This document shows positions 20,928 to 61,032 of a stretch of DNA of 64,000 nucleotides, piece by piece (position 1 is the stretch's first letter; each line of letters opens with the position of its first letter). The notes under the pieces were generated by a model. It was not told where the DNA came from and searched no databases. It saw only the letters and a program-made list of their open reading frames with translations. The DNA lies in contig CP068473.1 of NCBI GenBank assembly GCA_016766635.1, positions 430,673 to 494,672 on the forward strand. Reading direction: 5' to 3'. This DNA comes from Candidatus Xiphinematobacter sp. GTDB lineage: Bacteria > Verrucomicrobiota > Verrucomicrobiia > Chthoniobacterales > Xiphinematobacteraceae. A program made the translations under genes and the position numbers.

Positions 20928-22094
20928 CTATTCGGGTGTAACTTTCTGGAGAAACCGAAACTTTCCATTTCTAATGCGCAAAAGTACCAGGGGTTTTCTG
21001 GGGTCTCGACTTTTCTCAAAAGTGATTTGGCCACTGATTCCTTTGTAGTCATGAGTTTCTGAAAGCGCATTGCGGACAGCCTGTCGGAACTTTTGCAATT
21101 CTGAAATGTCGCGGAGGTTAAGATTTTGTGGATTATTAACCCTTGCCCGCTCCATGGCATTAGCTAGAAGCATTAATGTATCGAAAGCGGTCACAGTGAA
21201 CGTCATAGGTCTCTCTCCTTTGCCATATTTCCTCTGATACCTTTGAACGAAAGACTGTACCCTGAGATCTGGATCTTCGGCAGAAAAGGCGCTCACAAAA
21301 ACGGCCCCCTCGGCAGCCTCCCTAGCTACCCGTATAAGATCAGTGGCGTCCCAGCCGTCCGCTCCAAACACGTCGAGCCCCATCTCCAAGAGCTGTGCCT
21401 GCTTCATACTAGTCGCACAGTCTGTGTAGTTACCCGGAAGAAAGAGACAATCGGCTCCGGACTCCTTGACAGTAGTGAGCTGTGCCTGGAAGTTCTTGTC
21501 GCCGCTATTGTAGGCTAGCTCTGCTACGATACGTCCCCCTAGAAGCACAAACTGTTTTTGAAAGCTATCTGCTATGGTCGTGCTGCTATCTCTGCTGATG
21601 TCCACTAGGATTGCTGCACGACTTTTTCCTAAGGAACGCACGTATCTTGCTACTACTTGCCCCTGCTGGCTGTCACTGTAACTTGCACGGAAGACAAAAT
21701 CTTTGCCTTGCGTGATCTTGTCGTTGGAGGCGGCATTGGCAATTAGGGGGACCCGATGGCGTTGGGCAATAGGCGCAGCTTCTAGCGTACGCCCCGAGGC
21801 TACCTCCCCAATAAGGGCCACTACACGGTCTCTACTAATAAGTTCTCGAACAATAGCTGAAGTTTCCCCGGCCTTAGATTGGTTGTCTCGCACAATAAGT
21901 TTAATTGGATACCGTAGTGGAACATCTGCACTTTTTCCGCCTATCAAAACTCCACCTTGAGCATTTATCCCATCATTTGCCATCTGAATCCCAATCATGG
22001 CGTCTTGACCAAAACAGGCTTCTGTCCCACTAAGGGATTGGAAGACTCCAATGCAGATAGGTTCTTGGAATCCCTTACCGTACTCTTGCGTCAC
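20928..22094 (-). CDS. LivJ-type periplasmic amino-acid binding protein
   Basis: The 388-residue frame is a type I periplasmic binding protein of the branched-chain amino acid receptor group (Peripla_BP_6). It has ICIGVFQSLSGTEACFGQDAMIGIQMA near the N-terminus, then GEVASGRTLEAAPIAQ, and a hinge region with DCLFLPGNYTDC. The open frame begins at a GTG inside what should be the signal peptide or linker. The hydrophobic leader lies just upstream in another frame, separated by 11 consecutive T. As written it would be a cytoplasmic protein without an export signal. No permease or ATPase genes are nearby, so the ligand and partners are unknown. It may be a pseudogene or rely on slippage. Confidence 0.82.
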   Translation of the reverse strand: MTQEYGKGFQEPICIGVFQSLSGTEACFGQDAMIGIQMANDGINAQGGVLIGGKSADVPLRYPIKLIVRDNQSKAGETSAIVRELISRDRVVALIGEVASGRTLEAAPIAQRHRVPLIANAASNDKITQGKDFVFRASYSDSQQGQVVARYVRSLGKSRAAILVDISRDSSTTIADSFQKQFVLLGGRIVAELAYNSGDKNFQAQLTTVKESGADCLFLPGNYTDCATSMKQAQLLEMGLDVFGADGWDATDLIRVAREAAEGAVFVSAFSAEDPDLRVQSFVQRYQRKYGKGERPMTFTVTAFDTLMLLANAMERARVNNPQNLNLRDISELQKFRQAVRNALSETHDYKGISGQITFEKSRDPRKPLVLLRIRNGKFRFLQKVTPE

Positions 22095-22183
22095 TTTCTT
22101 CTGGCAGGACTGCTGAAAAAAAAAAATACGCAGATAGTAATCCAGAAGGATGATGACAAGGAGGGCAATATCGCGTGCCTCAT
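22095..22183 (-). other. Out-of-frame signal peptide of the LivJ-like gene
   Basis: An ATG at 22183 opens a frame reading MRHAILP and then a hydrophobic stretch. It reaches 11 T (22116-22126 on the plus strand as A) and stops shortly after. Adding one T would join it to the mature frame through QQSC, a lipoprotein-like cysteine, and KKVTQEYG. The frame break thus coincides exactly with the homopolymer. Confidence 0.7.
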
Positions 22184-22405: not shown

Positions 22406-23263
22406 TTAAGATTTAACAATGACGGGCTGCTTAATGAAATTGGAGAGAAGTGTCTTGGGGAAAAATGGGTTGGAGGCCTTTTCTTCCCCAACAGAGGTCA
22501 GGGGACCATGTCCAGGACATAGAAGCGTATCCTCGGGAAGGGAAAAGATGTTTGATGCGCAGCTTTGTAAAGCCTCCTGGTAGGAGCAATTAGGCATGCC
22601 TATGGAGCCAGCGAAAACTGCATCTCCCACGAAAGCAGCTGAATATTTGCGGTTATGGACAACATAGGTAATCCCTAATGGCGAGTGTCCACAGGTTTTT
22701 CGCGCCTCTATTACAAAGTCATCCATCAAGAATGTTTGTCCCGGCTGCAAGGGCTGGGCCCCTGGTAATTCCTCAGCAATCCACGCGGTGGCACTAGTCT
22801 TTTCTAGAACCCGATCCAAATCAAAAATATGGTCACCGTGGGAGTGGGTTAGGAAGAGAAATTTTAACTGCAGCCGATATCTAGCCAGACAATCAAGTAG
22901 TCCAGAAGCATCTGATCCGGTATCGAATGCAGCTGCGGATCGGGCTGCAGTGTCCCATATTAGGTATGAATTGACCAACATGCCCATAAAGTCCGTCTGA
23001 AACCGACGCCACTCTTCTGGAGGGTGGGAAATTCGGGGATGGTACTCGTTACGATGAATGGAAAGCAACCGTTTTGGATGAAGATGTAAGGCCGTGGCAG
23101 CGAGCTGCAAACTTAATTCGTTTCCTCTACCCTCTAGTAAAGCGTTGACATGCTCCAGGGGCAGCTGGGCCTTATTTGCTACTTCCGCCGGAGAAATTTT
23201 TAGGCCGCGCATAGCCTTACATAAGATATCATAGGAAGAGTCTTCAAGAGGCTCTATGGGCAT
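22406..23263 (-). CDS. HTH domain fused to metallo-beta-lactamase fold hydrolase
   Basis: The 285-residue protein has two parts. Residues about 10-68 resemble a lambda-repressor-like helix-turn-helix (ISPAEVANKAQLPLEHVNALLEGRG, then LQLAATALHLHPKRLLSI). Residues about 90-285 are a metallo-beta-lactamase fold with THSHGDH (139-145), the later His region GHSPLG, the bridging Asp in FVGDAVFAGSIG, and CPGHGPLT. The hydrolase part resembles small glyoxalase II-like enzymes, so a thioester or similar substrate is possible but unproven. The HTH may bind DNA or only mediate dimerisation. All metal ligands appear intact. Confidence 0.8.
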   Translation of the reverse strand: MPIEPLEDSSYDILCKAMRGLKISPAEVANKAQLPLEHVNALLEGRGNELSLQLAATALHLHPKRLLSIHRNEYHPRISHPPEEWRRFQTDFMGMLVNSYLIWDTAARSAAAFDTGSDASGLLDCLARYRLQLKFLFLTHSHGDHIFDLDRVLEKTSATAWIAEELPGAQPLQPGQTFLMDDFVIEARKTCGHSPLGITYVVHNRKYSAAFVGDAVFAGSIGMPNCSYQEALQSCASNIFSLPEDTLLCPGHGPLTSVGEEKASNPFFPKTLLSNFIKQPVIVKS

Positions 23264-60816: not shown

Positions 60817-61032
60817 AGCTTGGCAAGACCTGAAAGGACATCCCCCTCCCTTCCCTCTCACTTTGGATGTTATACTGGGAGGGAGGAAAACCTGGGGTGG
60901 GGGGGGGGGAAGAATCTCACCTTTTAACTGGAGCCGGAGGAGCAAAAAAAATGCCCCCCTCCCCATCACGATTATTCTTTCTCAGGACGCAGGGGCAGAC
61001 AAAGGATTTAAACCCTCCTGGAGAGGAGGGGC

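Follow-up and report, generated by a model that had tools for sequence, protein, structure and literature searches.

A T11 frameshift between the export leader and the body of a LivJ-like substrate-binding protein gene in Candidatus Xiphinematobacter sp., with possible leaky expression by slippage

A LivJ-like gene divided at a T tract

The minus strand of the window (the whole 64-kb stretch of DNA that was analysed) carries a gene related to amino acid substrate-binding proteins in which an export leader and the protein body are found in different reading frames (Table 1). The leader ORF starts at ATG 22183 and encodes the 30-codon peptide MRHAILPSLSSSFWITICVFFFFSSPARRK, with one Arg followed by a hydrophobic stretch as in export signals. 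It runs through 11 T (A11 on the forward strand), after which it is out of the body frame and ends at TGA 22093-22091; translation confirmed the initial annotation on this point, as well as the lipoprotein-like junction pointed out behind the tract, where the body frame reads QQSC and continues as QSCQKK. From GTG 22094 the body comprises 388 codons plus a stop and is undamaged. Its frame is open over 421 codons, and no ATG, GTG or TTG was found in it from 22193 down to GTG 22094, which shares the sequence GTGA with the leader stop. A scan for promoters and terminators gave scores below the shuffled means.

Table 1. Features of the locus in window coordinates
Feature	Position	Strand	Basis
Leader ORF, 30 codons, leaves frame after T11	22091..22183	-	Translation; homologous in-frame leader in the sister genome
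T11 homopolymer	22116..22126	-	Longest A/T run in the 917,278-bp genome
QQSC with likely lipid-attachment Cys	22104..22115	-	QSCQK common to the sister and four outgroup copies
LivJ-like substrate-binding body	20928..22094	-	PF13458, 2.6e-52; dN/dS 0.067
GTGA overlap, possible stop-restart coupling that would give a leaderless protein	22091..22094	-	Sequence reading
Stop-free body frame, including upstream part without a usual start codon	20928..22193	-	Frame translation
Metallo-beta-lactamase-fold hydrolase, the upstream neighbour here and in the sister	22406..23263	-	Profile match and synteny

The body matches Peripla_BP_6 (PF13458, HAAT substrate-binding) over positions 1-342 of the 343 in the profile, with 179.1 bits against a cut-off of 31.7, and its best solved relatives are 4gnr and 3td9. 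With the NCBIfam model NF011933 (PRK15404, high-affinity branched-chain amino acid binding) it scored 97.4 bits against a cut-off of 477. Judged by these scores, the protein is related to the LivJ type and is not a member of the NF011933 subfamily. It apparently is a LivJ-like (HAAT, type I fold) substrate-binding lipoprotein. The full-length domain match is shared with the LivJ/LivK-type proteins, whereas these are free in the periplasm, and the gene studied here lies apart from permease genes. The canonical lipobox is [LVI][ASTVI][GAS]C; all copies of the protein carry QSC, which departs from this textbook motif in the Gln at -2, and the Cys is invariant. Together with the signal peptidase II (LspA) retained in the genome, the invariant Cys supports the assignment as a lipoprotein.

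Relatives, constraint and a second binding protein

Four genomes of the genus were compared, namely the present one (G000, a single contig of 917,278 bp), that of a sister species (G003, 915,884 bp) and those of two congeners with larger genomes (G001 and G002). At the same locus the tract of the sister counts 8 T, and its leader is in frame with the body (MRHPAFPFSPSLWITICAFFLQSCQKKV in the alignment). The two leaders align in the frame of the sister apart from a single 3-base indel ahead of the tract, and at the tract itself the lengths differ by 5 bases. In G001 and G002 a leader is followed by QSCQK in all copies examined (4/4), and this motif is kept in the six target-type copies looked at (the present one, that of the sister and four outgroup copies). 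The export signal and the likely lipid-attachment Cys are found in one frame in the sister and the four outgroup copies and in separate frames in the present genome. The in-frame leader of the sister and the QSCQK of the outgroups indicate that leader and body were once one gene, and a chance hydrophobic ORF unrelated to the body was rejected on account of the homologous leader in the sister. The frameshift occurs in one of the two small-genome species compared; since the sister is in frame, it is not shared by diverged lineages, which would have been a sign of continuing selection after the frameshift.

When the window was compared with the sister for frameshifts, 12 ORFs showed matches in at least two frames, which were taken by eye for antisense shadows or overlapping neighbours; besides the target, no clear frameshift was seen by eye over the 64 kb. 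A scan of the genome contigs returned no relative and led nowhere.

The body is well constrained. Its dN/dS against the orthologue of the sister (Nei-Gojobori count) is 0.067, the seventh lowest of 42 pairs of window ORFs of at least 150 aa, a list that may include antisense ORFs. Relative-rate counts (present genome/sister) against the four outgroup copies were 16/12, 16/10, 13/14 and 15/8, similar to those obtained for the paralogue described below (14/12, 15/10, 12/11 and 14/7), and no chi-square above 2.4 was obtained with the four outgroups, so that acceleration of the target in this lineage was not significant. Old decay was rejected on the basis of the lesion-free body, the low dN/dS and the lack of acceleration, which bears out the earlier argument that 388 undamaged codons speak against it; clear decay of the mature frame, looked for in the orthologue of the one sister species, was not found either. 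This constraint suggests that the frameshift is either young or compensated, and both dN/dS and the rate counts average over the whole divergence, so that a very recent null allele would look the same as a compensated frameshift.

A second LivJ-like protein, 60% identical to the target, is encoded at G000:C1:273452-274642 next to a PF02653 permease gene (272203-273039), and another PF02653 protein is found at 308278-309090 of the same contig. The two binding proteins have been retained in each of the small genomes (in the sister at G003:C1:464750-465940 and G003:C1:643408-644607). In the two small-genome species the paralogue (G000:C1:273452-274642 and G003:C1:643408-644607) has FQALQ and no QSC and, to judge from this sequence, probably carries no lipid or is anchored in the membrane. 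Passages of the 2015 genome paper state that livJ, livK and livM are missing in the Idaho strain (PMC4607532); in contrast, two LivJ-like proteins were observed here in each small genome and two PF02653 proteins in the present one (loci L001, 271985-276070, and L106, 308278-309090).

Slippage at the T tract and alternative explanations

The reading that we tentatively prefer, with a probability of about 0.45, is that a slippery tract recently changed in length and left the gene probably leaky and not fully off. If the assembly is right, the comparison shows that the T tract, whose codons make up the Phe-rich end of the signal peptide, changed in length by a non-multiple of three after the split from the sister. 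Most of the 11-T message would then yield a 30-residue dead-end peptide and perhaps some leaderless body started at the overlapping GTG. By analogy with published tracts, slippage of the RNA polymerase on T11, mostly by insertion of a single base, could produce a minority of full lipoprotein with the junction FQQSC, and a -1 ribosomal slip on U_UUU_UUU may lead to the same junction.

Rescue at a low level is mechanistically likely if published tract behaviour applies. For the Escherichia coli RNA polymerase, the frequency of single-base insertions on A/T runs climbs exponentially as the run lengthens (PMC5574713), and the enzyme slips more on poly(T) than on poly(A), with insertions about threefold over deletions in one gene (PMC6260861). 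For frameshifted symbiont genes, corrected transcripts have been reported at 12-50% (PMC5009743), and eight B. vafer genes carrying frameshifts of this type were regarded as potentially functional because of slippage (PMC3017870). The leaky-gene reading is further favoured by the sister in frame, the conserved QSCQK, the dN/dS of 0.067 without acceleration, the retention of signal peptidase II and two PF02653 permeases, and the frame kept at the C/G runs of 11 bases described below. Evidence against it is that the sister has no frameshift and thus gives no sign of long maintenance, and that a genome-wide survey of Buchnera detected no frame-restoring transcription indel (PMC5574713). RNA folding behind the tract showed nothing notable in two tests (z -0.71 and -0.98), and a stimulatory structure was accordingly rejected as support for slippage.

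Frameshifts of this sort have been described in other symbionts before, and the present one adds to their number. Tamas 2008 and Wernegreen 2010, as cited in PMC5009743, PMC3017870 and PMC6260861, dealt with genes in Buchnera and Blochmannia in which transcriptional slippage makes up for a frameshift at poly(A)/poly(T). These cases share with the present one a reduced symbiont genome and one indel in a run of about nine or more A or T (here T11) within an otherwise intact and constrained frame (here 388 codons). The comparison with reduced symbionts made in the initial annotation is in this respect a fair one; it is weakened by a GC content of 49% (PMC7857533, Table 1) and by the 17 A/T runs of at least 9 bases genome-wide, against 153 poly(A) runs of at least 9 bases in genes of B. 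vafer (PMC3017870). In addition, the tract lies here in a signal peptide and the sister has no frameshift. In a single literature search on frameshifts in Xiphinematobacter, the present one did not turn up in print; the one paper returned deals with something else, judging by its title and abstract.

The first alternative is that a real and very recent indel with negligible rescue marks the first step of gene loss, tolerated because of the LivJ-like paralogue beside the Liv-type permease gene. This is possible, with a chance well below even: the second binding protein may buffer the loss of the target and the frameshift is confined to one lineage, while the body shows neither acceleration nor a second lesion and both small genomes have kept both proteins.

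The genome has 17 distinct A/T runs of at least 9 bases, with the T11 tract as the longest; by base composition a T11 is unremarkable (about 0.4 expected on both strands by a hand estimate). Sixteen of these runs were inspected, the set comprising all but that at 818884: twelve are inside or in contact with a stop-free frame of 198 codons or more, one is the target, and three (L040, L046 and L052) have no frame of at least 198 codons and are placed in stretches not aligned to the sister. A genome-wide habit of genes broken at A/T runs was rejected, as 12 of 16 runs are in or touch long frames. Five G/C runs of exactly 11 bases are present (G000:C1:645, 97060, 207364 and 679895, and window 60899-60909), and translation took in the four outside the window. 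Three of these are located inside ORFs of 325, 432 and 448 codons whose frame continues on both sides, one of them presumably a glutamyl-tRNA-synthetase-like gene, and the remaining one falls in a repetitive region rich in Lys/Pro or Gly. Distinct runs of at least 9 bases number 17 A/T and 21 G/C in the present genome vs 10 and 17 in the sister.

These runs bear on a second alternative, somewhat unlikely, in which the frameshift is a consensus artefact: either the tract was miscounted or strains with tracts of unequal length were merged, and most cells would carry the gene in frame. As described in the source paper, the genome of isolate P23 (CP068473) was obtained from 150-bp paired Illumina reads of pooled nematodes (~500-2,000) assembled with metaSPAdes into contigs that were then laced, with a coverage of 23-84x across samples (PMC7857533). 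Being the longest A/T run, T11 is also the likeliest to be miscounted. The three C/G runs in frame within long ORFs make a miscount at T11 less likely, yet possible at poly(T), and the lack of any other clear frameshift by eye in the 64-kb comparison with the sister argues in the same direction. Moreover, the Illumina platform is not strongly homopolymer-prone and 150-bp reads easily span 11 bases.

A contingency locus, in which tract length switches between cells and turns a surface lipoprotein on and off (phase variation), is improbable. Its precedent is P78, an ABC-transporter lipoprotein of Mycoplasma fermentans that undergoes poly(A) phase variation with one A lost in a 7-base tract, according to passages of PMC2831843 and PMC3711429. 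In both cases an ABC-transporter lipoprotein gene has a homopolymer close to its 5' end and is inactivated by a frameshift, and the tract differs between the two small-genome species (8 vs 11 T); however, T11 is read here from one static assembly, the tract of the sister is short, there is no known length polymorphism, none of the other A/T runs inspected was seen to interrupt a long conserved ORF and a host-restricted symbiont has little evident need of such a switch. It is very improbable that T11 and GTGA form a localisation splitter kept by selection, in which unslipped messages would give a leaderless cytosolic protein by stop-restart and slipped ones a membrane-anchored lipoprotein. Least credible is a gene that needs no rescue, with the body translated either as a cytosolic protein starting at GTG 22094 or from an uncommon initiation codon (such as ATT) in the open upstream frame: that frame reaches 22193 with a hydrophobic stretch (ALLVIILL) and the GTG overlaps the leader stop, but a substrate-binding protein needs export, the upstream body frame has acidic and tyrosine residues unlike the leaders of relatives, and the sister encodes its leader in the other frame.

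Implications for symbiont genes

Whichever reading holds, an annotation that begins at the GTG and gives 388 aa would hide the export signal of this gene. If there is no rescue, the locus would capture gene loss cleanly at its first step, with the intact sister as a control. If rescue does take place, frameshifts tolerated through slippage would extend from the AT-rich symbionts of insects to a verrucomicrobial nematode symbiont with 49% GC, and this tolerance would concern an export signal.
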